Shown here piece by piece: positions 38,848 through 60,489 of a stretch of DNA of 64,000 bases. The notes beneath the pieces were generated by a model. The model made no database searches, was not told where the DNA came from, and saw nothing but the letters and a program-made list of their open reading frames with translations. The first letter of the stretch is position 1, and each line of letters begins with the position of its first letter. Origin of the DNA: Isoetes taiwanensis (Eukaryota > Streptophyta > Lycopodiopsida > Isoetales > Isoetaceae); NCBI GenBank assembly GCA_021234155.1, contig JAJEKV010000030.1:1498901-1562900 (forward strand), given 5' to 3'. The position numbers and the translations under genes are program-made.

Positions 38848-38912
38848 ATTACTGTCAGGATTAAAAAACCCCCGCCCCGAAGGGTTTTCGAGGAAAAAAC
38901 CTTAACAGTAAT
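38848..38912 (-). ncRNA. Conserved 3' UTR hairpin of LINE A (UUCG loop)
   Basis: Outer stem: ATTACTGT (38848-38855) pairs with ACAGTAAT (38905-38912). The inner part on the minus strand reads AAAACCC-TTCG-GGGCGGGGG, a helix capped by a UUCG tetraloop. Two other copies (43341-43417 and 60410-60489) keep the inner framework but have different outer stem sequences that still pair, and a GAAA loop. It lies 65 bases before the tail, where LINE reverse transcriptases of the stringent type bind their RNA (known for some LINEs; here inference). Confidence 0.75.
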
Positions 38913-38952
38913 AAGTATGCTACACTGTACAATTCTATAGGACAGTTCAATA

Positions 38953-41900
38953 CTATCCCGGAGGACACAACTGAGTCCGTGCATCCATAACTTCCTGGAG
39001 GTATGACCCCAACAAGCCCACTGATGCCGTATTCAATAACTTATGCAACGGCTGACCAGGCACTAGTAATCGAACATACCACGCTCGGATATGGGCAAAC
39101 GCTGGGCAAATCTGGAGGGCATGACATTCATCTTCAATGGCGCCCTGGTGGCAACACTGGCAAAGCCTTTCCTCCCGTGCTTCCCGAGCCCAACCTCCTG
39201 TCTCAATGCGGAGACGATGTGCACCCGTGCGAATGGAAGCTATAAGTCTGTGCTTCTTCATGGGCATATGGGTGTACAAGTACTGGTGTGGGCCTCTCGT
39301 GAGCCTAGGATTGACTTGCTGCTGATAGTGTGCCAGCTTAACGTGCGTCAGAGCATCTTCATCCTAGAGCTTGCGAAGGAAAGTAACATCTAGGTACAGC
39401 TTAAGTGCATTGTGATCCTTCTTTGTCCTTACATGTACGCATCTGTTTGCCTGTACACCCCAACGTGAGAACCACCGAGCTTGCTTGTCCTTCCAGCAGG
39501 CTTTGAGGCGTTGGGGACCCATCGCTACGACCAAAGCAAGGCTGGGCAAACGTGTATCACCCATAGTGACTACCTTCTGGAAGTAAATAATATGGCGTTC
39601 CAATGCAGCCCATTGAAGGGGTAAAAAACCTGTCTCTTGGAGTAGAATCTGGTATGGAACTGTGGACTTTACCCCAAAGGCTCGTGCCAAGAAGACTTTC
39701 TGCACCTGCTCGAGGTCATTCCAGGTGTTGAGGGATATGATCGGACCCCACACTTGTGCCCCATACAAGAGGACCGGCTCGACTAAGGCCCTAAACAAGT
39801 GTGACTGGTGGCCCCGGGCATACAACTCTGCCTTGTGGCCGTTGTTTTGCATGGCATATAGTGCTTTCCAACCCGCTGTGACCCGCAACCTGATGGCAGC
39901 ATCCCATGGGTGGTAGTAGAGAACTCGATCCCCAAGTACTTGTAGGTCGGAGCCACCTCTACATCTTGTCCCTGGCAAAAGAATGAGGGAAGCCTTGGCT
40001 GACGGGATGACGAAACTAGCAGCACCCTAGTTTTGGCCAAGTTAACTCGCATGCCAGTGAATTGGCAAAAAGTGTCAAGAGCATCCATGTGATATTGTAT
40101 GTCCTCTGGAGTATAGGCCAGGAGGTTGACATCGTCAGCATATATGAGTTGCTGGATTGTGTAATGCATGAGATGACCTCCGTGCTCAGAAAGCCAATCT
40201 TTCAGCTAAAGAGTGTAGGCTAAAGAGTGTAGGGAAGAGGGGGCAACCCTGACGTACTCCAATACTAATGATTACCGGCATGATGTGATACGGCCTGAGC
40301 ATGCCTCGTATAGCCTGCATATTACGTTCTGCAAGTCAGGGGAGGTCCCCAGCTGCCATAATCTGTTCCATAACTTGTCCCGGGGCATTGTGTCAAAAGT
40401 TTTTGCGAAATCCACGAAACAACAGTACAGGTTTTGTCGGCGCCTGCTATCCTCAATCAGTGTGCGCAGAGTGAAGATACGATCAATGGTGGAATGCCTG
40501 GGTTGAAAGCCTGCTTGTGTGAGAGCTCGCACATCTGCCTTCTCTGCCCATATTGTCAGCCGCTGCTCAAGGATGCCAGCCAACAATTTTGCAAAGAGAG
40601 AGCTAACCATAATAGTACGATAGTTGGCTGGGCATTGAGGGTCCCCTGCCTTGTATATGGGCACAACTCTACTAGTGGTCCACTGTGGAGGGAAGCCTTC
40701 TTGCAATGCTTTATTGAACAATGCCATGAGGACAGGCACCAGTAGAGGCCCAGCCCATTTCAGAAGTTTCGCCTGCATGCCATCTAAATCTGCTGCCTTC
40801 TTATTAGCTAGGCGTTGCAGGCCCATGATGACATCCCGGCCCCTCTGTGATGACCAGAACCATGCCCATCTGTGGAGGCACTAGTGCCCGGCCCCTGAGT
40901 GGGTCGTAAAGCTGTTGCAAGTACTGTACCCATTGCTCCGAAGTGATGCTCCCTGTGGGCTGTACAACCTTGCTCAATACCTTTTTCTATAATATCTTGC
41001 CGATACAGGAGACCGAACATCTGTTGCTGGTGCTCTGTGAGATATCTGGCTTTCTTGTTCTTGAGGAAGGAGCAGTATTGACTGATGGCCTGTGAGCGGG
41101 ACGTGGGATCAGTGACTTGCGGGAGTTCACGTTTGAGCTCCTGACACTCATCATCGAACCATCTATTGCGGGGGAAGGTGGCAGCGCCCGAGGTTCTCCG
41201 CGAGTGGCCTCTCCCAAAGCATCTTTCGCCACCGCCGAAGCGGTGTGAGTCACCGGAACATTGTTCGCCGGGTGTGGGGAGCTGCAGTAGTCCCGCCAGA
41301 TCATGCTTAAGCATCTGGCCATAGCTCCCTTCACGGTCGTAGTCCAGGCGCAGCTGGGGCACCTGGCATGTTGAGGCAGTGGATGCACGGGGAGCCTGCC
41401 AATGTATATGCACGAACAGGGGCTGGTGGTCTGAGTCCACTTCCTCATCCCGAGTGTCTGTTCCAATGGAAAAATGGCTAACCAAGTGCAGATTATGTCC
41501 GTCGACAAACGAGTAATCCATCACACTGGAGCCGCCCCCTTAGTTCTCCTGTCTACAAGTGTAGCGGCTGGAAGACGGCCATTTTGCCAACTCATTACAA
41601 AGAACCAGGTCAAAGATACTACCTAGCAGCAACAACTGCCTGCCATAGCGTGAAATATGGTTGTCATTTGATATCCTTGACCAAGCTACCTCTGCGGGGT
41701 TCAATTGCAAGACGTCCTCTGCTAGGGGCTCAGGACCTGCTCGGCTCCTGTGCGTGCATTAAAGTCTCCAAGCAGCATAACCTTGCCCAACTGTTTGTGC
41801 TGCTGTATGTCATCATATAGATCGCCATAGGGCTCCAATCTATCCACACCCGAATGAGTGTTATAAAAGTTGCTCTCGGCATGTGGAAAGTAGCATGCTG

Positions 41901-42215
41901 CTACGAAGAGGATGCTGCCATTGTCATGCTGCACGCGCACCCACAAGTAGCGATTGTATCTATGTCTGTTTTGTGCAGCGAGACTGACTGCCCCAAAGTT
42001 GCACAATAGTAGCAGGCAACCCCCCATGCCCTCGCTTGCCTGTGGACTCGTTGAACACCGAACAATGCAGATAGCCTGGTAGGTTCGGCAGCCTATGCTC
42101 TGCATGTTCCCATGTTTCCATGAGGAAAATGAGATTCATATCTGGTGCAATAGAGTTGAGACTCTCCCCTTTCTGCCAAGGGAAGCCCCGATAGTTCCAA
42201 GATATTATCCAGAGG
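38953..42215 (-). pseudogene. LINE A ORF2: endonuclease, reverse transcriptase, zinc knuckle
   Basis: Minus strand. Endonuclease: SWNYRGFP-like start near 42200, LIFLMETWEHA, then LLGDFNARTG (about 41745) and SDHQPLFVHIHW (about 41420). RT: TQAGFQPRHSTIDRIFTLRT, CCFVDFAKTFDTMPRDKLW (motif A with D) and YADDVNLLAY (about 40135, catalytic DD), then RVNLAKTRVLL. C-terminus: CQCCHQGAIEDECHALQICP, a CCHC knuckle, at about 39160. The reading frame changes between the open segments 41722-42105, 40808-41524, 40272-40826, 39783-40169, 39364-39978 and 38953-39279, so the protein cannot be made as is. The catalytic motifs are all present, so inactivation is recent. Confidence 0.85.
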
Positions 42216-42223
42216 CACAGTTT

Positions 42224-42940
42224 CTATTTATTGGCATTTGATGTAGACGCACGATGATCTGTTCCGGTTGCGGGGAGGCGGTGTGCCGCTACCGGCGATT
42301 CGCGGGAGCGGGAGCAAATGAGCGGCGGGGAGCAAGAGGTGCAGTAGGGGTACTGGTGGCAGTAGTAGGAGTTGCAGCCAGTGGGTGGCTCCTGTAGCGG
42401 TAGCAATGGGGCGTCTGGATGCTGTAGCAACTTGATGCATTGCATCAATGACCTCAACAGGCGCCCGCCTGAAAATGCGTAGCTTGCCTCGGACCAATCC
42501 TGCAGCATCCCTCGACGGCGGACGTCCCTGACTTGAGCCAGTTGTTGCCGGCAGGACTCCTGTTGCATCGGAGTAAGATCCTGGTCACCATACAGGGTAG
42601 TCCCCTTCAATTGCCTACTCTGACGCAAAATTGCCTCATGCACTCGCATGTCTGCAACCGTGAAGGTGACAACGCGTGGGCGATCTGTACGTTGAGCCCC
42701 AAGGCGGCTTGCTCGGACAATGTGGACTGTGGTCTAAAATGCCATGAAATGCCATGCACTTGGTGAGATCCTCTCCTACTTCCTCTGAGAGTCCACGTAC
42801 CACCACATTATGACATCGTCGGCCCTGCTCTTGCTGCTCACTGAGTCGCGGGGCAACATTGGCTATCCAAATAGGTGATGCCTGTTGTCTGGAGTGTGTG
42901 GGCTGTTCACAGCAAGGGCGGTGTGGTGTTCGAGATGTAG
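42224..42940 (-). pseudogene. LINE A ORF1 (RNA-binding protein) fragment
   Basis: On the minus strand the frame holds RPRVVTFTVADMRVHEAILR followed by SRQLKGTTLYGDQDLTPMQQ, matching the end of the RNA-recognition-like domain and the LTP motif of L1-type ORF1 proteins, which bind element RNA. It continues into a Pro/Ser/Ala-rich tail that ends just before ORF2. The upstream part to about 42940 is readable (PIWIANVAPRLSEQQ) but has a stop. The N-terminus is not identifiable. Confidence 0.6.
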
Positions 42941-43028
42941 CAGGTGTTGTCTATCTGAGAAAAAATGGTATACAAACCTTATCTATAAGCCTCTCAACAT
43001 GCTGGATAGGAAATATTTACACAGTCAG

Positions 43029-43060
43029 ATCAAACAACCATTATATAAGTAAAGCCTTAG
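43029..43060. repeat. Phrase shared with the far side of the structured element
   Basis: CAAACAACCATTATATAAG and the following TAAAGCC recur at 44332-44360 with one change and a short insertion. The two copies lie outside the structured element at 43175-44336, on either side. Confidence 0.5.
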
Positions 43061-43174
43061 ATAAACATAGAAGAGGATTACAAAAGAATAAATTACTATA
43101 AAAATAAAAGCTTGATTAACTTTTTCTTTGATAGTTGTTATGAGCATTCTATTTTGACTTATGTTTTGAACATT

Positions 43175-43179
43175 GGCCG

Positions 43180-43215
<36 letters not shown>
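43175..43215 (-). repeat. (GATA)n tail of element M
   Basis: About ten GATA units on the + strand, in the same position relative to the hairpins as the pentanucleotide tail of LINE A. Confidence 0.8.
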
Positions 43216-43216
<1 letters not shown>

Positions 43217-43265
43217 GCTTGTCATTCATCACAGCAGCAATATACAATGTTTTGAAGAATAGAGA

Positions 43266-43302
43266 GGGGTAGCCGACCATAGGAACAATATCGGACTACC
43301 CC
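43266..43302 (-). ncRNA. 3' stem-loop of element M
   Basis: GGGGTAG with CTACCCC, continued by CCGA with TCGG across one bulged base. The element at 60.3 kb has GTGGGTAG with CTACCCAC continued by CGC with GCG, so paired positions differ together. Confidence 0.65.
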
Positions 43303-43340
43303 GTAAAAAGAAATGTGCACAGGCAATATAGAAGGGTAAT

Positions 43341-43417
43341 GGCGACAACTTCTCACCGGGATAAAAAACCCCGCCCTTTCGGGTTTTCGAGGAAAACCCT
43401 AATGAGAAATGGTCGCC
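43341..43417 (-). ncRNA. Conserved long hairpin of element M (GAAA loop)
   Basis: Outer stem GGCGAC (43341-43346) with GTCGCC (43412-43417), middle stem TTCTCA (43350-43355) with TGAGAA (43403-43408), inner stem on the minus strand CCC-GAAA-GGG. The flanking inner sequence (ATAAAAAACCCCGCCC and GGGTTTTCGAGGAAAA) is nearly identical to LINE A and to 60.4 kb, while the outer stems differ and still pair. Confidence 0.8.
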
Positions 43418-43425
43418 AACAACCT

Positions 43426-43640
43426 TGAATGTGTTGCCTGGAAAACCGAAGGAGATGGATTGATGGCGAACACAAATATAGCAGGACCCCAGAAGACGGC
43501 AGAATCCCCGAATGTGTTGCCTGGAGAGCCGAAAAGGTGGGTTGATGGCGAACACAAATATAGCAGGACCCCAGAAGACGGCGGAAGCCGGAGATACGAA
43601 GGAGACATGTGGATGGCGAAGCCAAGAAAGCAGGACCCTA
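43426..43640 (-). repeat. Tandem units of about 83 bases
   Basis: GAATGTGTTGCCTGGA...ATGGCGAACACAAATATAGC...CCCAGAAGACGG occurs at about 43426 and 43509 with few changes. A more diverged third copy starts near 43590 (GTGGATGGCGAAGCCAAGAA). Open frames through it are repeats of the same phrase and look incidental. Confidence 0.75.
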
Positions 43641-43785
43641 GAAGACCGCGGAAAACCTGCAGCAACTCAAAAGAACCCTAAAAATACCCGTGAATGGTTA
43701 GAAAAACTACCATGAATGGCAGGGACAAGGCAAGCCGCACAATAAAAAACCTGCAAAGAAGAGCAAATTAGAAACATAAAAAGCA

Positions 43786-44060
43786 GCACCCAAAAGGTGG
43801 AGAAGCATCACCCAGCGGGTGGAAAACAATTATGCGTCACCCTCAAGGTGGAAATAAATAGCATCACCCTCAAGGTGGAAATAAATAGCATCACCCTCAA
43901 GGTGGAAATAAACAGCATCACCCTCAAGGTGGAAATAAATAGCGTCACCCTCAAGGTGGAAATAAATAGCATCACCCTCAAGGTGGAAATAAATAGCATC
44001 ACCCACAGGTGGAGATAGCATCACCTGAAAGGTGGAGAAAGCATCACCCAACGGGTGGAA
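43786..44060 (-). repeat. Array of about ten short hairpins
   Basis: Each unit of 23-28 bases carries a stem of the type CACCC...GGGTG with a loop of 3-5 bases, flanked by ATC before and GAAA after (+ strand). Six central units are CACC-CTCAA-GGTG; others are CACCC-AGC-GGGTG, CACCC-AAC-GGGTG and CACCT-GAA-AGGTG. Paired bases change together between units. The 60.6 kb element has two more (CACCC-AAT-GGGTG and CACCC-AAAT-GGGTG). Confidence 0.85.
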
Positions 44061-44281
44061 AATAACATATGAAAAAATGACATGATAGTGAAGCAAAAAC
44101 ATTATTATAGTAAATGCAAAGTGAACAACAACAAAAGTGCAAGGCCCAAAAACACAAATGAAACAGACGCGTCCCCACTGAGCAGGGCGGGAAGGGAGGG
44201 AAGCTACGAGAAGGAAGGAAGCTGCTGTGAGAAGACGCCGATAACCGGTCCTGAAGGGGAAAGAGCCTTATATAATGGCTC

Positions 44282-44330
44282 GTCCCTCCCCAGAATGGCG
44301 ATCCGAGGGATCGATGCGATTATATAGGAC
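44282..44330 (-). ncRNA. 5' internal-loop hairpin of element M
   Basis: On the + strand AAT-GGC-GATCC-GAG-GGATC-GATGCG-ATT, closed by GTCC and GGAC. The asymmetric internal loop GGC/GATGCG is conserved in copies at 60853-60909 and, with one changed base, at 61171-61203, while the outer stem and the apical loop vary. Confidence 0.65.
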
Positions 44331-44421
44331 AACAAACAACTATTATATAAGTAAAGTCAAGCCTTTAGCTATTATGTAAAGAACCCCTAGTGTATCTCTT
44401 ACGCAACCACGAGAGTAGTTG

Positions 44422-44447
44422 TTTTTTTTTTTTTTTTTTTTTTTTTT
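44422..44447. repeat. T run at the left edge of the duplicated unit
   Basis: 26 consecutive T directly before the first base of the duplication at 44448. It could be the A tail of an insertion on the minus strand. Confidence 0.8.
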
Positions 44448-44943
44448 ATAAATATACTGATATATGCATACATACAACATGTTGTGAATTGGAGCCAATA
44501 GGTTTGGACCTTTGTCCCTATGTAAACGTTGGGAGCGTATCCCTAGTGGTATGGCCAATATACTATAATCCTAAATATTACGAATATTCTATAGTCAAAG
44601 CAAAGGCAATGGCTAATGAACATGGAAACTTGGTAAGTTGAAAAGACATCTCAGATGAGGTAAAGACATCTCATGTCAATGTTAAAGCAGTAACCAGTTA
44701 TTTGAGGCTATTTAGGAAAAGACCATGGTAATGTCACATTCGTCGAATGAGTTTGAATAGGTAAACGTTGAAAGGCTACCACATGGTGCAATTCTGCATA
44801 TGAATTTATAAGCAAAGCCATTGGACGTTTAAAGGCAAATGTAAAATCAAGGTATATTTATGTGGACGGGAATGTTACCTTCGGGAAAATGGGTGACATA
44901 AGAAGATAAGAAAAAATATAATGTTTTGTTGTATAATTAACAA

Positions 44944-45025
44944 ACGTTAGGGTTCCGTCCATGCCTTGGACGAAACTGAAGATAGGTTAGGGTTCCGTCC
45001 ATGCCTTGGACGAAACCGAAGATAG
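44944..45025. repeat. 40-base direct repeat inside the duplication
   Basis: GTTAGGGTTCCGTCCATGCC and the following GACGAAACTGAAGATAG occur twice back to back; the same pair is in copy 2 at about 48114-48193. GTCC and GGAC within it can form a short stem. Confidence 0.75.
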
Positions 45026-45214
45026 CTTCTGATGGCTGATGACCTACACTGGCTTTCGAAATTAGAAGATAAGATTTACAGGCTGGATTTTTGCAGAATA
45101 GATTTTTTCCTAAGGGCCGTTGCAGACCATAAGCCCGAAAGTAAGTACACTTTTCTCAGTTGAGCATAAATAGCAGATGCTCGGCCAGTTGTGGTCTCAA
45201 TTTCGCTATCTCTA

Positions 45215-45377
45215 TCAAAGATATTTGTGATTTTGGGCATGGCAAATTTGTGAGAGACAAGCAAACTGGAGTTGATGGTGTAATTGATCCTGAAGTTGCA
45301 AATAATTTGCAAGCAAACTGCATGCAAATATGGAAAACAACGCAGGAGCTATCCATGGAGGACTCGTCAATCAGGTT
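45215..45377 (+). pseudogene. Exon-like segment in duplication copy 1 (unrecognised)
   Basis: An open stretch containing DFGHGKFVRDKQTGVDGVID followed by NLQANCMQIWKTTQELSMED ends at a GT splice-donor-like site (CAATCAG then GTTTTT). Composition and the boundary look like a real exon. No family is recognised. The second copy lies at about 48384-48544 with a small upstream deletion. Confidence 0.4.
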
Positions 45378-46534
45378 TTTATTTTTGTTTAGTCAGCTTA
45401 TTTTGGCTCATATCTGATCAATAGTTATTGGCTAACTTTAAGAGAAGTAGATCCGATATGCCTATTTCCAAGCTTGCTAGCTATTATGATCTTGAGTAGA
45501 TCCGGACTTGGTCTTGCCGCCTATTATGAAATTTCTGCAGTTGTAACATGATAAACAAGTCTGTGCATTGGCAATTCATGTAAAATTATTTAATGTAGAT
45601 CTGCGTATTGTGCTTGTTGTAGATGAGAATATGCATAAACGTCCTTAGGCTGCTCATTGCTAGAAGTCCTACTGACTTATATAACTGAAAGATGCATTTC
45701 TTTTCTGAGGCAAATAATAATGGTCATAGGGATGTGATCTAAATGTTACTCTAAATGTTAAGGCTATGGAGCCCATCATGTGTATTAATAAGGGGCTGTC
45801 CAGGGAAAAGGGGACTGCCAGACACACCAGTATAATGGCATAAAGAAGAATGGATAGGCCACTAAAATTTTGTGTTATACTAACCCTTTTTGGTCTGGTT
45901 GCCTTAGAATTCCAGTAGGAAAATGGAACTGATATACTCCTGATTAAGAACAGGGATATTAATGGAGCTGCCATTGTAATGTAGCTGTTTCTAACCTTTA
46001 TTGTGCTTTGACATGCTTTATGGTATGGTACATCTTTTTAAACATGGTGAAGGGGATAACCCAAGAAACCTAATGCTTACCTGTCAGTGCTGTCATTATT
46101 ACCCTTCTTAGGCTAATTTTTGGCTGGTTTACTGCAGGTAACAAGGTTTCTTGCTCCATGCTTTGATGTATCTATTTGTCTAAGCTGATGGTTCAAGCAA
46201 TACAAGACTTCAAGTAAGATTATTCCTATGGGACAACAAGATCTATATCTGGAACTCATTTATGTGTTATATTACTGTCCTAAGATGTTCTTATAGATGT
46301 TTATTTCTGAAAACAGTGTGCTACTGTCTACTCTTATGTAACTATATGAATTTTAATGAATGATTTTCAAAGTAAAGTGTATAATGGTTAAAATTATTTA
46401 ATGTCCTTTTCTTGGCCTAGTAAAATGTTCCTGTCATTTTGTCTAGGACTGCTAAAGGCAGACTTAGTATTTTCAAAGGGAAATATTAAGTTTGGAAGTC
46501 TGGTTTCAGATTTGAGGTTTTTTTTGTTAAACTC

Positions 46535-47610
46535 AGTTTTCTAGTTATACTAGAAACCAAGATTAGGACTAATACTACAGGAACAAAACATTTTCTAATG
46601 CATTTGCTTATGACTATAGGCTGAGGTCAGAGTTGATGATAATAACTATTGGATCAAAGAGCTCATTCTACTAAGTATCATGAATGTGGGATTGAAAGCA
46701 CTAGGCACTAGAAACCAGGTTTGGGCAAATATTACAGGAGAACCTTATTCTAATGCATTTGCCTATGTTTATAGGGAAAAAAATAGATGGAGGAACGGGT
46801 ATATTTCAAATAACATGGACATGTTAGTGGCAGCCCAAATCCGGCAGTATAAGTCATCTTACCATGTGGCTGCACATAAATATGAAAGGCATTCGCCAAT
46901 GAGATAAATCATGTTCCAGATTTTGGCACTTGCCATGTGGTTAAATCATATCCCTGATTTTGACTTTTGCCACGCAAAGATGAACATAATTATGTCCACA
47001 AGGCCCTGATGATATTTACTTAAGGCATATGCAGAAATCCAAACTGGAGCAATATGTGAAGCCAACAATTGGGCAAAATACAGTAACGGATCTGGGAATT
47101 TCCACAACACATAACTAAAAAGGCATTTGCCAAGGGTTTAATCATATCCCATTTTGTGGTTGTAGCATTCAGGGTATCATTGTGGATCTAGAAAGCAAGG
47201 TTTCTGGAGACATTTGCCAAGAGTTAAATCGTGCTCCGGATTCGAGCTTATGCATGAAAAAGATGGGAGACGTTGAAAGTCTTGAACAGACTAATAGGAA
47301 AGAAAAAGAGCATATACATGTTTTGGCAAAAAAGAAATATACAAAATTGTCCTGAGATACGTGAACAAGGAACAATCCTCTTGGTTACTATAGAATCATG
47401 GAGATAGGGTACATGCGACATATGGAGTTCATAAGAAGACATGTAACAATAAAGTGCAGAATTGCAAAAAGCAGTTAAAAGCATTGTGAGGGCAGGGCCT
47501 ATGCATACAGCAAGGCCCTGCACTCCTTGCTGTATATATTGCTGTTAAAAGTTTTGTAAGTAAAACTAGCAATAGCCCCACCTGAACAACGGTTGGAGGA
47601 AGGATTTATT
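46535..47610. other. Unduplicated part of the 3.17-kb unit
   Basis: Contains two diverged copies of a block of about 70 bases starting CTAGAAACCA and ending TATAGG (about 46550-46620 and 46705-46780), and several loose repeats of CATTTGCCAAGAGTTAAATC at 46890-47235. The ORF at 46680-46907 is unrecognised. Confidence 0.4.
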
Positions 47611-47615
47611 TTATT

Positions 47616-49694
47616 ATAAATATACTGATATATGCATACATACAACATGTTGTGAATTGGAGCCAATAGGTTTGGACCTTTGTCCCTATGTAAACGTTGG
47701 GAGCGTATCCCTAGTGGTATGGCCAATATACTATAATCCTAAATATTACGAATATTCTATAGTCAAAGCAAAGGCAATGGCTAATGAACATGGAAACTTG
47801 GTAAGTTGAAAAGACATCTCAGATGAGGTAAAGACATCTCATGTCAATGTTAAAGCAGTAACCAGTTATTTGAGGCTATTTAGGAAAAGACCATGGTAAT
47901 GTCACATTCGTCGAATGAGTTTGAATAGGTAAACGTTGAAAGGCTACCACATGGTGCAATTCTGCATATGAATTTATAAGCAAAGCCATTGGACGTTTAA
48001 AGGCAAATGTAAAATCAAGGTATATTTATGTGGACGGGAATGTTACCTTCGGGAAAATGGGTGACATAAGAAGATAAGAAAAAATATAATGTTTTGTTGT
48101 ATAATTAACAAACGTTAGGGTTCCGTCCATGCCTTGGACGAAACTGAAGATAGGTTAGGGTTCCGTCCATGCCTTGGACGAAACTGAAGATAGCTTCTGA
48201 TGGCTGATGACCTACACTGGCTTTCGAAATTAGAAGATAAGATTTACAGGCTGGATTTTTGCAGAATAGATTTTTTCCTAAGGGCCGTTGCAGACCATAA
48301 GCCCGAAAGTAAGTACACTTTTCTCAGTTGAGCATAAATAGCAGATGCTCGGCCAGTTGTGGTCTCAATTTCGCTATCTCTATCAGCATATTTGTGATTT
48401 TGGGCATGGCAAATTTGTGAGAGACAAGCAAACTGGAGTTGATGGTGTAATTGATCCTGAAGTTGCAAATAATTTGCAAGCAAACTGCATGCAAATATGG
48501 AAAACAACGCAGGAGCTATCCATGGAGGACTCGTCAATCAGGTTTTTATTTTTGTTTAGTCAGCTTATTTTGGCTCATATCTGATCAATAGTTATTGGCT
48601 AACTTTAAGAGAAGTAGATCTGGATATGCCTATTTCCAGCTTGCTAGCTATTATGATCTTGAGTAGATCTGGACTTGGTCTTGCCGTCTATTATGAAATT
48701 TCTGCAGTTGTAACATGATAAACAAGTCTGTGCATTGGCAATTCATGTAAAATTATTTAATGTAGATCTGCGTATTGTGCTTGTTGTAGATGAGAATATG
48801 CATAAACGTCCTTAGGCTGCTCATTGCTAGAAGTCCTACTGACTTATATAACTGAAAGATGCATTTCTTTTCTGAGGCAAATAATAATGGTCATAGGGAT
48901 GTGATCTAAATGTTACTCTAAATGTTAAGGCTATGGAGCCCATCATGTGTATTAATAAGGGGCTGTCCAGGGAAAAGGGGACTGCCAGACACACCAGTAT
49001 AATGGCATAAAGAAGAATGGATAGGCCACTAAAATTTTGTGTTATACTAACCCTTTTTGGTCTGGTTGCCTTAGAATTCCAGTAGGAAAATGGAACTGAT
49101 ATACTCCTGATTAAGAACAGGGATATTAATGGAGCTGCCATTGTAATGTAGCTGTTTCTAACCTTTATTGTGCTTTGACATGCTTTATGTTATGGTACAT
49201 CTTTTTAAACATTGTGAAGGGGATAACACAAGAAACCTAATGCTTACCTGTCAGTGCTGTCATTATTGCCCTTCTTAGGCTAATTTTTGGCTGGTTTACT
49301 GCAGGTAACAAGGTTTCTTGCTCCATGCTTTGATGTATCTATTTGTCTAAGCTGATGGTTCAAGCAATACAAGACTTCAAGTAAGATTATTCCTATGGGA
49401 CAACAAGATCTATATCTGGAACTCATTTATGTGTTATATTACTGTCCTAAGATGTTCTTATAGATGTTTATTTCTGAAAACAGTGTGCTACTGTCTACTC
49501 TTATGTAACTATATGAATTTTAATGAATGATTTTCAAAGTAAAGTGTATAATGGTTAAAATTATTTAATGTCCTTTTCTTGGCCTAGTAAAATGTTCCTG
49601 TCATTTTGTCTAGGACTGCTAAAGGCAGACTTAGTATTTTCAAAGGGAAATATTAAGTTTGGAAGTCTGGTTTCAGATTTGAGGTTTTTTTTTT
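47616..49694. repeat. Duplication copy 2 (ends at LINE B)
   Basis: Same sequence as copy 1. It ends at the T run at 49685-49697, which is the A tail of LINE B on the minus strand. After the LINE (from about 53760) the sequence does not resume the copy 1 order. Confidence 0.9.
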
Positions 49695-49840
49695 TTTGAG
49701 GAAAAGGAAGGGTTTGATATTAATCATAACTTAAAAACATACAAAAAATAGAAGGGCTCAGAGCCCGAATAGAAAGTAACTGAATACAATGACAACTAGA
49801 ATCCAAGATCATTTCTGACACTCTGATATATTCTTCAGCT

Positions 49841-50335
49841 TCATAGCCAAATACCACTTGCCGGAGCCGAATTCTGAGAGGGGGAGGTTTGAATCGGAAG
49901 AGAAGACAGATTAAAAAGGGAGGCTGGAATAGCAGGTAAATCAGGGAAAGAGTGGGTGGCATTGAGAGGCATGGCAAAGGATGGTGGGGCAATCCAATTA
50001 ATCTCAGACCAGGAAGGGGTAAGCAGCAACAATTCATCCAGGGGAACTTGGATTATGTCGAGAAGAACACCAGCAGCTGCTTCACATCTGCCTTTATGAT
50101 AATAGTACATCGACCTCAGACATGAGAATTGCCTTTCTGTGAGCAGGCGGTTGTTGTTACCAATGAATTTGTGTAGGATATGCGCATTATAAGCTTTCTT
50201 GAGGAGGAATTTGAGCCTAAAGGTTTCTCTCACTGCTTGTCTTGGAGTTCCCGAGTGGTGCACAGGGACATCATCCGGTAGTATCGTCCCCCTGAAGACT
50301 TGGACCACACTGTTCAAAAAGGCTGCAATCCACAA
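49841..50335 (-). pseudogene. End of LINE B ORF2 region in a shifted frame
   Basis: An open stretch that overlaps the end of the main ORF in another frame (WIAAFLNSVVQVFRGTILPD, then HHSGTPRQAVRETFRLKFLL). It looks like the former C-terminal continuation of the LINE protein after a frameshift near 50300. No catalytic motif is visible. Confidence 0.35.
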
Positions 50336-52517
50336 ATGAGTTCAAGTCAATCAAGGAGTCAAACCGAACAATGAAAAAATCAGACTTGAAGGCCCCCCAA
50401 GGCAACCAATCCGTATCATATTTTTCCAGCTTAGAGGCCTTATGGGCCATAGCACATCTAATAAGCTCAAATTGGAAATTAAGCTTCATCCAAATAAGAT
50501 CACACTTCCTATTTGCCATAGCCACATTATTCCTGTGTTTCCAGACAATCCACAAGGCTAAATGCAAGATAGAGGAGTCAACTCTGGATTTCTGAAGATT
50601 GAAGAATTGAGCCATACTAGAGATGGAGTCCATGTCAGGGATACTCAATTTAGAGCCAATCTGAGACAACCACCTCCAGAAATCTTGGATCATAGGACAA
50701 GTAAAAATGTGAAGAACTGTCTCATCCTGACTGTTACACAGGGGGCATAAGGGGCTGTGAACATTATTAAACTGTCTCTTGATCATATTTGTATTACTTA
50801 GCAGGGCATTGTGCAGGATCAGCCAGGCAAACACTTTGATTTTAGGACAGGAATAGGACTGCCAAATTGAAGAAAGAGTCTTCTTGAAGTTCTTGGAAGA
50901 TAGGCCATGGAAAGCAGCATACTTTCTTCTCTTCTGAGGAAGACAGGCATGATAAATTTTGGAGACCTTATAGCTCCTTTTTACTTTGAAGAACCAGTTC
51001 AGAGGGGAGTGGCTCTCCCCCTTACCATCCTTTCCCAGGACAGAAGAGTAGGCTTGGACAACCTGTTTATAGATCAATCTGTTGGTTACCCCTCCCCCAA
51101 CTTTTCTTTTGATAGACTCCCAAGGAATCCAATTATCATTCTCATCAATCAAATCCCTCACATATAAAATATTGGCTCTATGCCACTTCATGTAACAGGT
51201 AGGGTGGCAAATAGCCATGGCCGAGTAGGATGGGGGGGCTAGGATAGGAGACCAAAAAATTGAGGTATCCCTAACAGAATTGGTGATTTTATCATGGGTG
51301 AACTTACTAGCCACCATCTCCCAGGCCCTGAAAATGCTCCTAAGAAGGGAGGAAGTGTTAGAAGCACACTTGAAATCATAGAAGGCTGAATCTAGAAGTT
51401 GATGTCTTAAGGTGGCACTCCCTAGGGGTTTACTCTTGTTGAACCAAAATCTAATGAAGTCCATTGCAGGGGACTGAAAACCAGAAATGGCCTTCCATAC
51501 ATTCTTGGCCCCTAAGATCTGAGCCTGTAGGAAAAGAGATTTACATCCCAGACCACCAGCCTTCCTGCTATGGGTGAGCTCCTCCCAAGCAGACAAGTGA
51601 GTCCCCTGCCAAATATATTCTTTAATGCATTGTTCAATCTTGTTGTAAGAAGCTTTGTCAGCAATCAGAGCAGAGGAGAAGTAAACATGGCTGCTGGCCA
51701 AGACAGAGTTGGCAATTAGGATTCTACCAGCCAGAGAAAGTGATCCTTTAAGGATTAACAGTTTTTTCCGAATCCTGTTAATCAAGGGTTGCCAGGCCAC
51801 TTTGTGGGACATCTGAATAGCAAGGGGGAGTCCCAGGAGGATCAGGTATTGTCCCTCAGGAACAAATTTGATACCATGGGTATGGAGATGAGGGTATGAA
51901 CTGTCAGAGAGAATGGAACACTTAGCAAAGTTGAGGTGAATCCCAGAGGCAGCTCCAAACCTGGTTATACACTCCATCAAATTATCCAGGCAAGCATTAT
52001 CAGCTTTGGTCATGATGAAAGTATCATCAGCATACTGGAGGATGGACAACTGATTATCAGATTGAGGCATCTGGAGGCCATGGATCAGGCCCTTATCCTG
52101 ATATGAAGAAACCATTTTGGTGAGAATTTCAGCAGCAATAATGAAGAGGTAAGGGGCCAAAGGGCACCCTTGTCTCACTCCTCTCTGGATAGGGAAAAAA
52201 TCAGTGGGAGCTCCATTAATAATGACACATGAGGAAGCATTCTGATTTATGCCCATGATAAGGTTGATGAGGTAGGGATGAATGCCTATGTGGCTGAGGG
52301 ACTTCTCCAGAAACTTCCAGGAAATACAATCATAAGCTCTCTTAAAGTCTAATTTAAGAAGAATGCAGCCTTGCTTGGATAGCTTATTCCAGTGAAGAGC
52401 TTCATTAGCTGCTATGTAGTTGTCCAGTATAGATCTGTTGGGCAGGAAGGCAGATTGGCAAGCATTAATCTTATTTTGGAGATGCACCACCATCCTACCA
52501 GCAATGATTTTAGCCAC
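50271..52517 (-). CDS. LINE B reverse transcriptase and C-terminal domain
   Basis: 748 codons open. RT motifs in order: SAFLPNRSILDNYIAANEAL, LLKLDFKRAYDCISWKFLEK (motif A with catalytic D), GAPTDFFPIQRGVRQGCPLA, LQYADDTFIM (catalytic DD), HLNFAKCSIL. Then the plant L1 C-terminal region with a zinc knuckle-like CPLCNSQDETVLHIFTC at about residue 590-610. The true ORF2 is longer: the first RT motifs and the endonuclease lie upstream in other frames. The long open frame suggests a fairly recent insertion. Confidence 0.9.
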   Translation of the reverse strand: MAKIIAGRMVVHLQNKINACQSAFLPNRSILDNYIAANEALHWNKLSKQGCILLKLDFKRAYDCISWKFLEKSLSHIGIHPYLINLIMGINQNASSCVIINGAPTDFFPIQRGVRQGCPLAPYLFIIAAEILTKMVSSYQDKGLIHGLQMPQSDNQLSILQYADDTFIMTKADNACLDNLMECITRFGAASGIHLNFAKCSILSDSSYPHLHTHGIKFVPEGQYLILLGLPLAIQMSHKVAWQPLINRIRKKLLILKGSLSLAGRILIANSVLASSHVYFSSALIADKASYNKIEQCIKEYIWQGTHLSAWEELTHSRKAGGLGCKSLFLQAQILGAKNVWKAISGFQSPAMDFIRFWFNKSKPLGSATLRHQLLDSAFYDFKCASNTSSLLRSIFRAWEMVASKFTHDKITNSVRDTSIFWSPILAPPSYSAMAICHPTCYMKWHRANILYVRDLIDENDNWIPWESIKRKVGGGVTNRLIYKQVVQAYSSVLGKDGKGESHSPLNWFFKVKRSYKVSKIYHACLPQKRRKYAAFHGLSSKNFKKTLSSIWQSYSCPKIKVFAWLILHNALLSNTNMIKRQFNNVHSPLCPLCNSQDETVLHIFTCPMIQDFWRWLSQIGSKLSIPDMDSISSMAQFFNLQKSRVDSSILHLALWIVWKHRNNVAMANRKCDLIWMKLNFQFELIRCAMAHKASKLEKYDTDWLPWGAFKSDFFIVRFDSLIDLNSFVDCSLFEQCGPSLQGDDTTG

Positions 52518-53745
52518 CAGTTTGTATAGGGTGGTAGTTAAAGAGATAGGGCGCCACTCATTTGTCTTGGACGGGGGAATCGAGTCTTAGGAATGAGGGA
52601 GATGACCCCAACATTATAAGTAGGATAGATGGATTTTGCTCTCCAAATCCCCGGATGAAGTGGACAATGTCATCCTTCATAATGGGCCGAATTCCACAAA
52701 GAATTCTGGCTGAAAACCATCAATACCCGGCTTTTCCCCTTTTTCATACTTTTAAGGGTTTCAAAGATTTCGTGCGCCGGTTCAGGTCTGGATCCAATCC
52801 TCCTCCATCACATCATTAGGGGGCCCTATATCATCAAAAACCTCCTCAGATTTTACTTTCCTCTATGTTTTCATCTTTGAAAAGGTCTGAATAGAATTTA
52901 TAGAATGCGAGAGGCAATCTCCTTTTCATCTTTGTGTGTAAGACCACGATCGGGTCTCCAACCGAGTAATGGAATTGTTTATAAGCCTATTCCTAGCTAC
53001 TCTAAAAACATTTGGAACTCTCATGGTCTAACCGATTGTGCAATTTGATCTTGCTTCTTAAAGCCATCCCCTAACCTCGATGCTCCTCCAAGGTCTTAAT
53101 CTGAATTTCCAACTGCTCTTCCTTCAAATGTAAAGCATTATCATTGGGATTTTTTTCAATGAGGGATCTAACATCCTTGATCTGTTCCATGAAGTTATCC
53201 CTAATAGCCTTTCTTTTCTGGGCTAAGTCCTTACCCCATTTCTTCACCCAATCCTTAACTTTCTTCATCTTATCATTAAAGTTTTTCATGGATTGATGCT
53301 GCCCAATTTTGGGAAGGGAAAGGTAGAAAGAAGTGAAGTCTTGGCAGAAAGATTTCATCTGGAGCAGGGAAGTATTAAATTTAAATGGGGTATTCCTCCC
53401 TTTAGTTCCCAGAGGAAGACTTTTAGTATCCAGAAAGTGAGGCTGATGGTCAGAAATAGTGCTGGCAATATCCCCTGTAACAATGCAGTTATCCAGCCAG
53501 CTAGCAGAGTTATGAATATAGAACCTGTCCAACATGCAAAAGGTTCTCTGGTCCCCTTTTCTCTTGTTATTCCAAGAGAATTTGGTATTGGAGGAAGGGA
53601 TATAAATCAGGTCTTGATCAGTGTGCCATTGCTCCCAGGAGTATCTCTCATTCCTAGACATGTTAATTTTATTGCCAAGTTTCATGTCACAGTTGGGGGT
53701 ATTATTGAAGTCGCCTGTGATTATCCAATTCTCAATATCCTGCAT
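52518..53745 (-). pseudogene. LINE B endonuclease half and linker
   Basis: The open part 53071-53745 begins inside the endonuclease with WIITGDFNNTP (GDFN motif) and has SDHQPHFL (SDH motif), followed by a Lys/Glu-rich helical linker. Between 53070 and 52518 the linker to RT is broken by frameshifts; parts can be read in more than one frame. The N-terminal half of the endonuclease is missing. Confidence 0.75.
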
Positions 53746-53760
53746 TAGTTAAAAAATTGT

Positions 53761-55100: not shown

Positions 55101-55107
55101 GACTTAA

Positions 55108-55468: not shown

Positions 55469-55578
55469 CACAAATAGTTCTTAAAATTCTCATATGTACC
55501 TTGGATAGATATTTTTTGTTTTTCACAAATAGTTCTTAAAATTCTCATATGTACCTTGGATAGATATTTTTTGTTTTT
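55469..55578. repeat. Perfect tandem duplication of 55 bases
   Basis: CACAAATAGTTCTTAAAATT and the following bases to TTTTTGTTTTTC are repeated exactly (55469-55523 and 55524-55578). The perfect match implies a recent event. Confidence 0.85.
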
Positions 55579-55579
55579 C

Positions 55580-56150
55580 GAAGGTAAGAACTTTTTGTAT
55601 TGATTAGATTGGAGGAATTACAATACAAAGACCCCTCATGGATCAGATTGATTTAAATATAGAGGAACCTCTGCGGATCTGAGTTATACCTGCAGTTATA
55701 GTACTCATAAGTTTCTCTCAACTTCTTCTTCTATAAACCTCTTGCAAAGTTAGAGATGAAGAGAAACAAGACGAATAATAACCTCAACAATCTCCCGCAC
55801 TACTCAAAGAAGCTAATATGTTTCAAACTATGATCAAGTCCTGCAACCCTACTACTAAATGTGGGACTAAAAGGAGATTTGCATTGTTGGGATGCGCCAG
55901 TCAGCCAACCTGCAATAAGCTAGACACACAACCGAACCACCAAAATTCTCCTCTAAAATTCGATTCATGATATTCGGTTGACATAGAAGCATCTTCCTGG
56001 ACACAATCAGATTCCCTTGATAATTTCAAATATCTAGCACAATAACAGGGGTTTTTTTTTGTGTTTTTGTATGCTTTTCACTAAGGTTTTCCTATGATTT
56101 CGTGATGTATTCAAATTGATGTACTAATGCGTACATCTAGAGTGCACCAT
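55580..56150. other. No gene recognised
   Basis: Sequence with CAACAATCTCCCGCACTACTC-like composition that resembles retroelement leader DNA, but no family can be named. Confidence 0.25.
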
Positions 56151-56157
56151 TTTTGAG

Positions 56158-56355
56158 CCATTGATTTTAGCCTTTTTTTTTCAATGGTCAACAACCACAA
56201 TGGCTCACAACAAAAGCCCTTTTTTTGTGCGTGTGGTGCATAATGGGCACATGAAGGCCATTGATTTTAGCCTTTTTTTTTCAATAGTCAACAATCAATT
56301 TCTCACAACAAAAGCCCTCTTTTTGTGTGTGTGTGGTGCATAATAGGCACATGAA
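56158..56355. repeat. Direct repeat of about 100 bases
   Basis: CCATTGATTTTAGCCTTTTT and the following CACAACAAAAGCCCT...GTGGTGCATAAT.GGCACATGAAGG occur at 56158 and 56257 with few differences. Confidence 0.75.
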
Positions 56356-56359
56356 GGGC

Positions 56360-57480
56360 TTGAAGGGCGCATCTAGTGCAGTTTCCCCGCCGGCAACACA
56401 TTTCTTATCATAACTTTTGATCCAGGGCCCTGTTTGAGATGATTTTCATTGCTTGGAAAGCTCTCTCCGAGATCTTTTTGATAGTGTATGATATGGATAT
56501 GTTTGGTTAAGTTATCTATGCTAAAACAGCAATTTTTCGGCCGGGTTTGGTAGGCTTTCACATCCTACCAGCTGATTAATACAGGATTGCGTTATTGGAT
56601 ATTGTTTTATGGCTCATTCCGAATGAAGCTTGCAAAAAATTACCATGCATTTTTAGATTTTGAGGCAGTTATTAAGCAAATTCCAAGGCTTCTAGATTCT
56701 TGTGCTAACAAGCAGAAAAGTTTCCCACTTTGGTTTCTCACCACAAGAATCCATGGAGGCCAAAGGCTGCTGTTAAATTCCAGTTGAAAAATGTTTGTGT
56801 ATGGGTGTTGCAAACTTTATGACTTTCAGAATAATGGGATCAATCTGCTCTATCTTTATGGTAACTTTTACTTATGTTCTATTTGTTTTATTGTGATCAA
56901 ATTCAAAAGCTACAGGTGATGAAAGCCTCAAATGAATTCTAGTTTTTTTCTGGTTTGAATTCTAAATTTTTTGTTTGTGCCTCTTTATTTTCTGTCCTTT
57001 CACTAATGCATCTCGCATTTGGATCTTAGTCATGACTTATCTGTTGGCCGCCTAATGTTTAGGGACTAGAATTGGCAAGAAAGCTTGAAACATATATAAT
57101 TTGGCGTGTTGCAATGAGCAGATTCACACTTTGCTTAAAGCTGTTTCAAATTAAATTCTTATTATCAAGCAAATGCTTAGTTTTATGTAGCTTCACATTC
57201 ATTGAGTTTAAATTGTTGGACTCAAAGGCCTTAGTGCTAAAGCAAAACACATTTGCACTATTGAAACTTCATGTTAAATTGTTTGATTCAAAGTTGTTAG
57301 TGTTAAAATAAAGCACAAAGGATATGCGGGGTTCAATCCCCATGACATGACCTAACGGTCATCTTCTTAACAAATGTTTTTTATTCCATTGAGTAATAAC
57401 TCTTCTAAATTACTTTAATAACCTGTTGACCTTTTTTGAGGCTCCACAATTGCTATATATAATTTTTTGTTGTTATGTTG
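56360..57480. other. No gene recognised
   Basis: One open stretch at 56587-56787 has exon-like composition (LRYWILFYGSFRMKLA type) but no recognised family. GCGGGGTTCAATCCCC near 57327 resembles a tRNA T-arm, but no tRNA can be folded around it. Confidence 0.25.
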
Positions 57481-57489
57481 TCCATCTCC

Positions 57490-57735
57490 AAGGCCCCGAA
57501 GGGGCCAAAAAAAATTCTAGACAACACAAACCATTACATACAACACTTTTAAATTAAAATCCCCCTAAAACCCCCTATGGTTTGGGTGCATATTCACACG
57601 GGGGGGTGGTGGCGTCCCTAAGGCCCCGGCGGGCCAAATTTTTTTACAACACAAACCATTAACATCCAACATATAAAAATTAAATCCCCCCTAAAACCCC
57701 TGGTGGTTTGGGTGCATATTCACACGGGGGGTGAC
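57490..57735. repeat. Two units of about 125 bases with a GC hairpin
   Basis: Each unit runs from AAGGCCCCG through ACAACACAAACCATTA and AAATCCCCCCTAAAACCCC to TGGTTTGGGTGCATATTCAC and a G run. In the first, GGCCCC-GAA-GGGGCC is a perfect hairpin; in the second it is degraded. Confidence 0.75.
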
Positions 57736-58767
57736 GTAGGGTAGCGAGAGCCCTTTTTATACTGCCTAAAATGGTATAATACATGTTTGAAATCAACACC
57801 ATTAAGTATATTGCACCAAACCTTATAGTATTTCACAAGTCTTGCTATTCAGTATAAAAAAACTTGTACGAGCATACCCCACAAACGAGGATCGCTATCA
57901 TTTTCTTACTATGCCTTGGGTCATGTATGTATCTTAAAGATGTATTTGCATGGTATTTTCGCGAGCCTAGGCATGCACACGTCAAGCAACCAATTTTTAG
58001 GGTTGTCTTGCCCATGGCTGCGGTGCTGCCTAGCATGAGATATTTGGTTTGGTTCTCCTCAGTCTTTCTCTTCTCCAGTTTTTCATTCTAGAATTTTCTT
58101 GCCTTCTTATTGAGTTCCTCAAAATCTTGCTTCCGAATTCTCTGGCAGTAGACCTCAGTTCTTACACTCAATGGAGGTAATTATCTTGAACTTGAGTATA
58201 TTTTTTACTTGGTCTCTTTGAGCAAAAGAACAATAGTCATAACCATGAGTTATATTTTACTGCAATTGCATACGTGAGGCTAGTATCTTATAAAGTGTTG
58301 GATCCTTATATTTCATGTTTGTAGATTAGAATGCATCAGTATTATCCTGTGAATATTATACAAGGCATACTTTCTCCGGATTATGTATATTCAGTCTGTT
58401 TCTGGGAATCATTGAATGTTCCTAGAGCTGCTTCTTTTCTACAAATTCGTGTTCCCTGTGATGGAGATTGAAATTCTACCTATGCCAGTAAGCTATTTGA
58501 TCTTTTTTCAAATCTTATTGTTAAAGTGCGCTGCTCTCATTCTTGTTCACATATTGCATCTCACCTAAACAATTATGGATAGAGGCGTTATGCAAGCTAG
58601 CATAGTATTTCTCCTACTTGTTTTTCAGTCAAGTAACGCCTTTTTTTAGTGGTGACAAATTGATCGACACATCACATAGACATCTTGTATACGAATCCTT
58701 AATATGGGAATCCTTACTATGGGTTAACACTCGCTATGGTTTAACTCCTTTTGTCTTCCAGCTCTTT

Positions 58768-58990
58768 TGAAGAGCTCAAGCCAAGGACAACAAGGGGCTG
58801 ACTGAAATGTTGCAGCGGAATGGGGCCATAAAATCAAGAAAATTGGTTGAAATCATGGAGCTCATTGATCGAGGTTTGTTTGTTCCAGAAGTTGAAATGG
58901 CCTATGTCGATAGCCCAATGCCAATTGGGTATAATGCAACGATATCTCCCTGCACATGCATGGTGCCTGCCTTGAGCTATTATAGAATTG
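58768..58990 (+). pseudogene. Exon of protein-L-isoaspartate O-methyltransferase
   Basis: After a CTTCCAG acceptor the frame encodes LQRNGAIKSRKLVEIMELID, then RGLFVPEVEMAYVDSPMPIG and YNATISP, the conserved start of PIMT, which repairs isomerised Asp/Asn residues in proteins using S-adenosylmethionine. Right after the ATIS motif a short indel shifts frame; the other frame gives HMHGACLEL, the expected continuation. The exon is therefore broken, and no methyl donor site (VGSGTGY) follows. The last part of the exon is repeated in inverted orientation at 59.9 kb. Confidence 0.8.
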
Positions 58991-59981
58991 AGAAAATGGG
59001 AAATGTTAATGTCATGTAGTAGTAAAGGACTACTATAAATGTTGTCTGTTATATGGTATTTAAATGCTTCACAATTATAAATGTCTGTATCAAACAAATG
59101 TAATAACAAAAGACTTGACTATAGGTCGTGAATGCCTCTTTGTTTGGCGTTTGTCCATCAATTAACAAACCCTTAACTCTTCGCCCCGAAGGGCATGTAT
59201 AGTATGTTTCGTACATATTTCGTGCATATTCCGTACAACTATTATGCATATTCTATACAACTAAACCATTGAAAGGGGCATATGACACAGTAGGAAATTA
59301 AACCATTGAATTACCCCCCCCCACGGAGTAAAAAGTTGTTTTTACTGATATTTGTGCACGGGCATCCAACCATCGGCGAGGAGTTCCAAATATATATGCC
59401 CGTACATATATACAATGCGCTTCACAACCTCTGGTTTAATTCTGTATTTGAAACTAACAGTTAACTAAAACTTGCTAAATAAGTCGCACGCTTAACAATG
59501 GCCAAGATCCCAAAACCGACGTCCAACAGTTTGAGCTTACTGATGCACGCCCTACACTAGTATCAACAAAGACAATTGGGGTGACTTGGGTTTAATTCAA
59601 TGGTTTAATTTCCTAGTGTGTCAAATGACCCTTTTACGGAATACATATATAATAGTTGCACGGAATATGTACAAAATATACTATGCATGTGTACAATTAT
59701 TATTTTTTGGGCCCCTTTGAAAAAAGAGTTTAGGATTTGTTAACTGATCGATAAATGCTAAACAAAAAAGCATTCAAGACTTGTAATCAAGTCATTTGTT
59801 ATTACATTTGCTTGATAGAGACATTTATAATTGTGAAGCATTTAGATACCATATAATAGACAACATTTATAGTAGTCCTTTACTACTACATGACATTAAC
59901 ATTTCCCATTTTCTCAAATTTTTTAGCAGCTCAAGGCAGGCATCATGCATGTGCGGGGCAGATATTGTTGCATTTATAAAT
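58928..59981. repeat. Long inverted repeat containing the PIMT fragment
   Basis: Left arm 58928-59318 and right arm 59588-59981 are reverse complements over about 390 bases with scattered differences; the spacer is about 270 bases. The arms include the end of the PIMT exon (TATAATGCAACGATATCT at left), GACATTTATAATTGTGAAGC-type sequence, ACTACATGACATTAACATTT and the outer AATTCAATGGTTTAATTTCC. In the right arm, read on the minus strand, the PIMT frame is intact (ATISAPHMHDACLELL). Confidence 0.85.
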
Positions 59982-60298
59982 GCACTTGATCTATTTGCAA
60001 TCACAAAACCTCTTGAATGTATGCATTAATTGACCCTGAATGCAACTTAGTCTAGATATGGTGTAGAATTTAGACCTACAGAGTGAGATATGATGTAATT
60101 TAGCCCACAATATGCTTTTGATAAACAATTTGCCTTGAAATTTCGTTTTCACCTTATTGTTTTACCTTACTTTGAAAGTTGAGTGCAAATTAAACTCAGA
60201 TATATCACCAAGGGTCGGATTCTGGGAAAGGACTCGCAAGAGACACAAAACCGGCGGGCTTCTCATTCATCTCAGCAGATTTTCTACAATGGTGGACA

Positions 60299-60329
60299 GT
60301 GGGTAGCCGCACACATGCGAACTACCCAC
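60299..60329 (-). ncRNA. 3' stem-loop of element N
   Basis: GTGGGTAG (60299-60306) pairs with CTACCCAC (60322-60329), with CGC-ACACAT-GCG inside. Compare 43266-43302. Confidence 0.65.
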
Positions 60330-60409
60330 GAAACATAAAGGGAAAATCCAATTATATCATTTGGACCCCAAAAAAATACAATGCTAATAGATGAGTGGCT
60401 GATGTACCT

Positions 60410-60489
60410 GCCGAAAGCTTATCACCGGGATTAAAAAACCCCGCCCTTTCGGGTTTTCGAGGAAAAACCCTAGTGATAAGCCTTCCGGC
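60410..60489 (-). ncRNA. Conserved long hairpin of element N (GAAA loop)
   Basis: GCCG (60410-60413) with CGGC (60486-60489), CTTATCAC (60418-60425) with GTGATAAG (60473-60480), inner minus-strand CCC-GAAA-GGG. Inner sequence equals element M almost base for base; outer stems are different but complementary. Confidence 0.8.

Follow-up and report, generated by a model that had tools for sequence, protein, structure and literature searches.

The question raised by this locus is why a retrotransposon and non-coding elements lying near it carry the same RNA hairpin. The locus belongs to a 64,000-nucleotide stretch of the Isoetes taiwanensis genome (GenBank assembly GCA_021234155.1, contig JAJEKV010000030.1, forward-strand positions 1,498,901 to 1,562,900), referred to here in its full length as the window, and the coordinates below count from its first letter. 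Three copies of the hairpin occur in it: one in a long interspersed nuclear element (LINE), called LINE A, and two in non-coding elements, called B and C. A previous reading made from the letters of the DNA (the sequence-only reading) had taken the hairpin for a stem by which the LINE 3' end is recognized, with the non-coding elements as its passengers. We consider it likely instead that the hairpin is an element for nuclear expression (ENE), which would shield transposon RNA through a U.A-U triple helix formed with a poly(A) tail or with an encoded run of A's.

A hairpin with opposed U tracts

All three copies lie on the minus strand, at 38847..38913 in LINE A, 43341..43417 in element B, and 60410..60489 in element C, and inspection of the sequence confirmed their stems, coordinates, and inner loops as first described. 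The LINE A hairpin rises from an outer stem, ATTACTG/CAGTAAT, followed by a G-C clamp and a U6/U6 internal loop; above these come the upper stem UCCUCG/CGGGGG, a bulge of four A's (A4), and the tip CCC-UUCG-GGG. The hairpin of B combines the stems GGCGAC/GTCGCC and TTCTCA/TGAGAA, that of C the stems GCCG/CGGC and CTTATCAC/GTGATAAG, and both have GAAA at the tip. Common to the three are opposed tracts of 4 to 6 U in an internal loop, with a G-C clamp (GG/CC) below and the upper stem above. This U/U loop was absent from the first description, and it is what suggests an ENE. In its opposed U tracts, flanking G-C pairs, and near-3' position, the LINE hairpin has the anatomy of an ENE.

The proposal that the minus strand is the RNA strand held up in folding, with z-scores of -3.99 (LINE A), -6.17 (B), and -5.52 (C) and no equally stable sequence among 200 shuffles of each, compared with weaker values of -2.57, -4.72, and -3.68 on the plus strand. 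The minus strand is also that of the LINE A open reading frames (ORFs). With the U tracts forced open, all eight sequences tested stayed within 3 kcal/mol of their own minimum. Furthermore, a covariance model (R1) built from 46 other LINE copies, all of the LINE lineage, was searched against the 64-kb window and recovered the hairpins of LINE A (38847-38913; 92.2 bits, E 5.7e-20), C (60417-60481; 64.2 bits, E 5e-13), and B (43348-43410; 45.3 bits, E 2.4e-8); up to E 1, the sole further match had an E value of 0.5. Since a model trained only on LINEs detects B and C, their hairpins are related to that of the LINE in both sequence and structure.

Covariation was quantified on 46 LINE-lineage copies retained from 67 candidates after removal of near-duplicates, 16 of them chosen by their tail and 30 by a U-tract pattern. 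Paired cells amounted to 84.2%, compared with 81.0% after shuffling. Double changes occurred in 13 of 20 pairs (9.2 when shuffled, with 14 of 500 shuffles reaching 13) and in 56 cells (29.3 when shuffled, 0 of 500), and the covariation score was 0.234, compared with 0.185 for shuffled alignments (0 of 500) and 0.06-0.10 when partners were slid. The best-covarying pairs lie in the tip (CG 18, UA 11), the upper stem (UA 16, CG 10), and the outer stem (UA 19, CG 10). The 16 tail-chosen rows had by themselves 254 of 292 cells paired, and the pairs beside their U tracts were GC in 13/16 rows (columns 15-65), GC in 12/15 (16-64), and CG in 14/15 (23-53). In a set of 32 core strings, the six free pairs were paired at a rate of 0.818, compared with 0.770 when shuffled (0 of 2000); taken singly, only two of the six stand out (0 and 38 of 2000).

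Outer stem sequences differ between LINE subfamilies while pairing is kept, and swapped stems that still pair include AGCAGAC/GUUUGCU in copy L159 and CUAGUA/UACUAG in copy L140. In a further carrier, D, the outer stem UGCAUCAGUGA/UCACUAAUGUA (copy L071) pairs with one mismatch. Identity among seven tail-chosen copies of different subfamilies was 0.76 in the core, 0.70 and 0.76 in the outer arms, and 0.80 in the terminal part; it fell to 0.58 in the upstream part and 0.55 in the spacer, near the shuffled values of about 0.5. Covariation, the exchange of stems, and the recovery of all three hairpins by the LINE-only model bear out the claim of selection on RNA structure, and the covariation supports the ENE fold.

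The LINE A 3' end and the spread of the hairpin

LINE A occupies the minus strand. Its coding part survives as a reverse transcriptase (RT) fragment (40272..40880; RVT_1, E 1.6e-8), an ORF fragment with broken frames upstream of it (40808..41539), and another ORF fragment on its 3' side (39364..40026), the latter two having no Pfam match. Between the hairpin and the tail lies a separate conserved domain (GGGTCCCATAG..GGTCTCCGTGGACG, with small hairpins), directly before the A-run and the tail. In the window, the 3'-terminal domain (GGGCCCCATAGGCCAATTGGTCTCCGTGGACGAT), conserved across subfamilies, spans 38790..38823; an encoded A6 run, the proposed A-strand of the triple helix, spans 38784..38789, and the (TTCTA)n tail directly after it spans 38687..38783, all on the minus strand.

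LINE ends were sampled blind to the hairpin by searching the genome (1,658,258,908 bases in 1110 contigs) for the terminal domain plus tail, with a pattern demanding at least 3 A's; 4303 matches were obtained, compared with 0 in the control. Eighty ends were taken from the 100 matches listed; as these stem from the lowest-numbered contigs, the sample is not random. Fifty-four of them extend far enough upstream to include the hairpin (at least 115 nt of extension along the reference copies), and the hairpin is present in 54 of the 54, with local scores of 71-136, compared with 54 for the best of 80 shuffled sequences. The claimed link of the motif to the LINE 3' end was therefore found in every informative copy. 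Both U runs are at least 4 nt long in 50 of these copies, AAAA lies within the hairpin in 49, and an encoded A-run of at least 5 (5-8 A) follows in 52; over all 80 ends, 75 have an A-run of at least 5, where the pattern demanded 3. Hairpin and A-run are separated by 53 nt in 29 copies, 54 in 1, 55 in 4, 57 in 13, 58 in 5, and 61 in 2.

The remaining 26 ends stop 3' of the hairpin or inside it through 5' truncation, or are chance matches. Because the reference copies contain the hairpin themselves, a hairpin-less copy could mimic a truncation, and we therefore looked for LINE sequence resuming upstream of each break. None was found in the 26 short rows (best scores 22-41; shuffled best 35), compared with scores of 134-204 for 10 intact copies in the same test. 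Thus, no hairpin-deleted copies are hidden among these rows, with the reservation that the check could overlook a distant subfamily sharing the terminal domain only. After three rows with a common flank (L171, L172, and L196) were dropped as duplicates, 5 of the 23 independent truncations fell inside an 11-nt apical window, which is not significant (P = 0.083); RT stalling at the hairpin loop as a source of clustered truncations was set aside on this weak result. Four LINE relatives (L108, L109, L127, and L128) share the terminal domain but have (CCTT)n in place of (TTCTA)n as their tail, so the tail repeat differs between subfamilies.

The hairpin itself is abundant. An exact core pattern matched the genome 3269 times, compared with 0 for the reversed control, and a looser pattern fixing only the U tracts and clamps matched 147 times, again compared with 0. 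From the 100 core-pattern matches listed, 20 sites were picked, partly for differing loops, and the following counts are not proportions: LINE A relatives 8, element C 7, element B 1, a relative of B/C (L073) 1, and carrier D 3. A further 40 sites were picked for diversity from the 100 looser-pattern matches listed; in 26 of them the alignment to the LINE A reference exceeds 100 nt, 4 align to element C, and for the remaining 10 the aligned stretches are shorter. The hairpin of B recurs in at least 40 identical copies (the best 40 of 1060 candidates), and B has therefore spread recently. The exchange of stable tetraloops proposed in the sequence-only reading stood in the window, with UUCG in LINE A and GAAA in B and C; among the genome matches listed, however, the apical loop is diverse (AAAA, UUUG, UUCA, GCCG, UAAG, and others), so strict selection on a tetraloop is unsupported.

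Non-coding carriers and other features of the window

Element B occupies approximately 43170..44319 on the minus strand and comprises a 5' hairpin (CGATCC..GGATCG), a subterminal repeat (ATTCTGGGGAGGGACGAGC), a TATA-like box, a 27-nt minisatellite, the ENE, a (TATC)n stretch, and a truncated 3' module. Element C, at approximately 60220..61201 on the same strand, is a head-to-tail dimer of an ENE-bearing unit (60220-60895) and a partial 5' unit (60896-61201). Copies of both start with (host A)TC[CG]CATCGATCCGAG-loop-CGGATCG. Near the start end they have ATTCT..GAATGGGACGAGC, with an inverted copy, GCGAGTCCC..GAA(T), at the opposite end, and near one end a palindrome, CGATCCGA..TCGGATCG. Both contain a short (TATC)n stretch and frequently show head-to-tail GAA|TC junctions. 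The start site is preceded by GAA, marking a tandem junction, in 15/19 copies of B and 18/37 of C; the base before the start is A in 19/19 and 34/37, and the 3' GAA is followed by T in 18/19 and 19/19, respectively. An empty-site test gave no spanning match among the loci examined.

In these elements the hairpin is a module; where a copy has its end intact, the hairpin lies about 150-200 nt upstream of it. That they are passengers of the LINE did not hold: neither the LINE terminal domain nor the (TTCTA)n tail is present in B or C, which end in a GAGTCCC..GAA module of their own and form head-to-tail tandems. Having no poly(A), no LINE tail, and their own terminal module, they were also rejected as short interspersed nuclear elements. 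Their sequence features indicate that they are probably Helitron- or Helentron-like. HINE and DINE-1 Helentrons (PMC4067079) are likewise non-coding, with subterminal inverted repeats, a palindrome close to one of their ends, and tandem repeats or microsatellites; they show no obvious target-site duplication, a trait that B and C may share. Unlike them, B and C have A|T flanks that are not T-rich, and their inner repeat lies about 28 nt from the end rather than 38-60. The hairpin of B and C may have been captured from a LINE.

Other parts of these elements could also fold. Both B (43266-43302) and C (60301-60328) have a second minus-strand hairpin, GGGGTAG..CTACCCC, 3' of the ENE; its inner part differs between the two, and it was seen in several copies of these elements. 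Each unit of the 27-nt minisatellite of B (TCACCCTCAAGGTGGAAATAAATAGCA; 43837-44017) could form a small hairpin, and element C holds related units. Carrier D (L071, L081, and L085; around position 200) has the same ENE, but its flanks resemble none of LINE A, B, and C. In one 9.9-kb stretch no element stood out clearly; several kb upstream of the hairpin are two unassigned open frames that look RT-like or LINE-like.

Elsewhere in the window, a second LINE (49690-53748, minus strand; RVT_1 1.9e-35, zf-RVT 1.7e-13) ends in a run of A's and gave no match to the LINE hairpin model. Two sets of direct repeats, 99-100% identical and about 3.17 kb apart (44437-45765 and 47605-48932), are perhaps the long terminal repeats (LTRs) of a young LTR element. 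Nested inverted repeats over about 1 kb (58948-59958; arms of 194, 47, and 42 nt) suggest a foldback element or one resembling miniature inverted-repeat transposable elements. A 991-codon open frame on the plus strand (22676-25651) encodes Ufd2P_core and U-box domains and is uninterrupted by introns.

Competing readings and known systems

If the hairpin acts as an ENE, its U tracts would take up a run of A's into a U.A-U triple helix. In the LINE, the partner would be either the encoded A5-8 before the (UUCUA)n tail, in the manner of MALAT1, or a poly(A) tail; for B and C, only a poly(A) tail could serve. Such a helix would put the 3' end of the RNA out of reach of deadenylases or exonucleases, and the protection could increase the transposon RNA available for retrotransposition.

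Several points weigh against this reading. Inserted LINE copies have no poly(A), and no run of A's near the 3' ends of B and C in the window exceeds 4; the A partner is therefore putative. The encoded A-run may also belong to a generic LINE 3' end, and the search pattern had already demanded 3 A's. In the alignment, the looser pattern had fixed the U tracts and G-C clamps beforehand in 30 of the 46 rows, the shuffle controls ignore relatedness, and two large subfamilies supply part of the covariation signal. An Rfam search of window positions 30000-64000 returned zero matches up to E 1. The A4 bulge is not a known feature of ENEs, and none is known in the ENE of Kaposi's sarcoma-associated herpesvirus (KSHV) PAN RNA. 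Moreover, the minimum predicted for B and for LINE subfamily 2 is a fold in which a U tract pairs with the A4 bulge, favored by 2.2 and 1.6 kcal/mol, and RNAalifold run on alignment A2 gives an AAAACCC/GGGGUUUU fold, with double changes in 1 of its 7 pairs. In a separate consideration, a ribozyme or other known RNA was rejected as an identity for the hairpin on the empty Rfam result in the same interval, hammerhead and twister cores being sought by eye only.

The folds with a paired A4 lead to a rival in which the hairpin's own bulge is the partner of its U tracts, either as a conformational switch or as a self-contained triplex (U-tract, A4, U-tract) that would dispense with an outside A-run. 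AAAACCC is indeed complementary to both GGUUUU and GGGGUUUU, and the four A's are among the best-conserved unconstrained stretches of the core (28, 31, 32, and 30 of the 32 core strings, length 44), in keeping with the AAAA found in most tail-picked copies. The pairing would, however, break the covarying upper stem (UA/CG at columns 26-50, CG/UA at 35-40), and just two of the seven pairs of the rival helix show double changes. L108 and L109, which belong to one subfamily, have no A4 bulge and nevertheless retain U6/U6. On this balance we regard this rival as unlikely.

A recognition stem, by which RT would recognize the 3' end of the LINE RNA and which the non-coding elements would have copied as passengers, is very unlikely. 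The part of the sequence-only reading that stood is the location: the hairpin is conserved and near the LINE 3' end in every copy long enough to include it. It does not adjoin the tail, however, lying 53-61 nt upstream of the A-run and tail with a different conserved domain next to them; B and C have the hairpin without that domain or the tail, and the conserved U/U loop would have no role in recognition. The 26 ends without a full hairpin are uninformative here because truncation comes after priming. That the hairpin is merely a stable repeat structure, of DNA or RNA, associated with transposons by chance and unselected is scarcely credible: high-copy families can spread any sequence, as the identical hairpins of B illustrate, but outer stems have been replaced with pairing kept, the stems covary, conservation exceeds that of neighboring sequence, and all sufficiently long LINE ends have the hairpin.

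Returning to the ENE, we put forward more tentatively, as a possibility, that the LINE has a built-in cap in place of poly(A). The ENE would act on the encoded A5-8, a MALAT1-like triplex would protect the non-polyadenylated RNA, and the pentanucleotide tail would stay accessible to target-primed reverse transcription; the module would also have been captured by non-coding elements, Helitron-like and other, and would move as a cassette between transposon classes in this lycophyte. If the ENE reading is true, the RNA-protecting triple helix of herpesvirus, MALAT1, and plant-transposon RNAs also serves a LINE without poly(A) in its DNA copies, and the LINE shares an RNA stability module with non-coding elements that belong to a different class. 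With its variants numbering in the thousands within a single genome, this ENE would then offer a natural system for the base-by-base requirements of the triplex, and the finding would be relevant to the evasion of RNA decay by transposons and to the spread of such modules.

Plant transposons are already known to carry ENEs; the LINE form looks like a variant of them not described before. Among the papers listed by our literature search, which did not cover the primary list of ENEs (Tycowski 2016), none was recognized as describing a LINE ENE. That list is reported to hold about 200 ENE motifs, mostly from plants and fungi (PMC12501189; PMC12846552), with a strong association with LTR retrotransposons (PMC12501189). 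Like them, the present hairpin would be an ENE in plant transposon RNA. The KSHV PAN RNA ENE is a 79-nt element whose unpaired U stretches, a feature shared with our hairpin, form a major-groove triple helix with poly(A); its carrier is a viral non-coding RNA, unlike the transposons here (PMC4246217). With the triple helix at the MALAT1 3' end, the LINE hairpin shares a U-rich internal loop and a genomically encoded downstream A-rich tract. MALAT1 has a basal linker of 15 nt and a helix of nine U.A-U triples plus one C.G-C triple (PMC11411715), whereas the LINE has one U4-6 loop and an A-run that lies 53-61 nt away and is followed by a pentanucleotide tail. Among transposons, the comparison is with Evade (Copia93) of Arabidopsis, in which an ENE in the 3' untranslated region forms a triplex and enhances mobility; this ENE needs its flanking G-C pairs, acts with the poly(A) tail, and on deletion reduces RNA stability and mobility (PMC12501189). 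Both systems place U-rich tracts as internal loops of a fold-back near the 3' end of a retrotransposon, flanked by G-C pairs. Unlike the system described here, Evade is an LTR retrotransposon with four U-rich tracts (PMC12501189); the Isoetes hairpin has two, and its carriers are a LINE, which has the encoded A-run and ends in a (TTCTA)n tail, and the non-coding elements.

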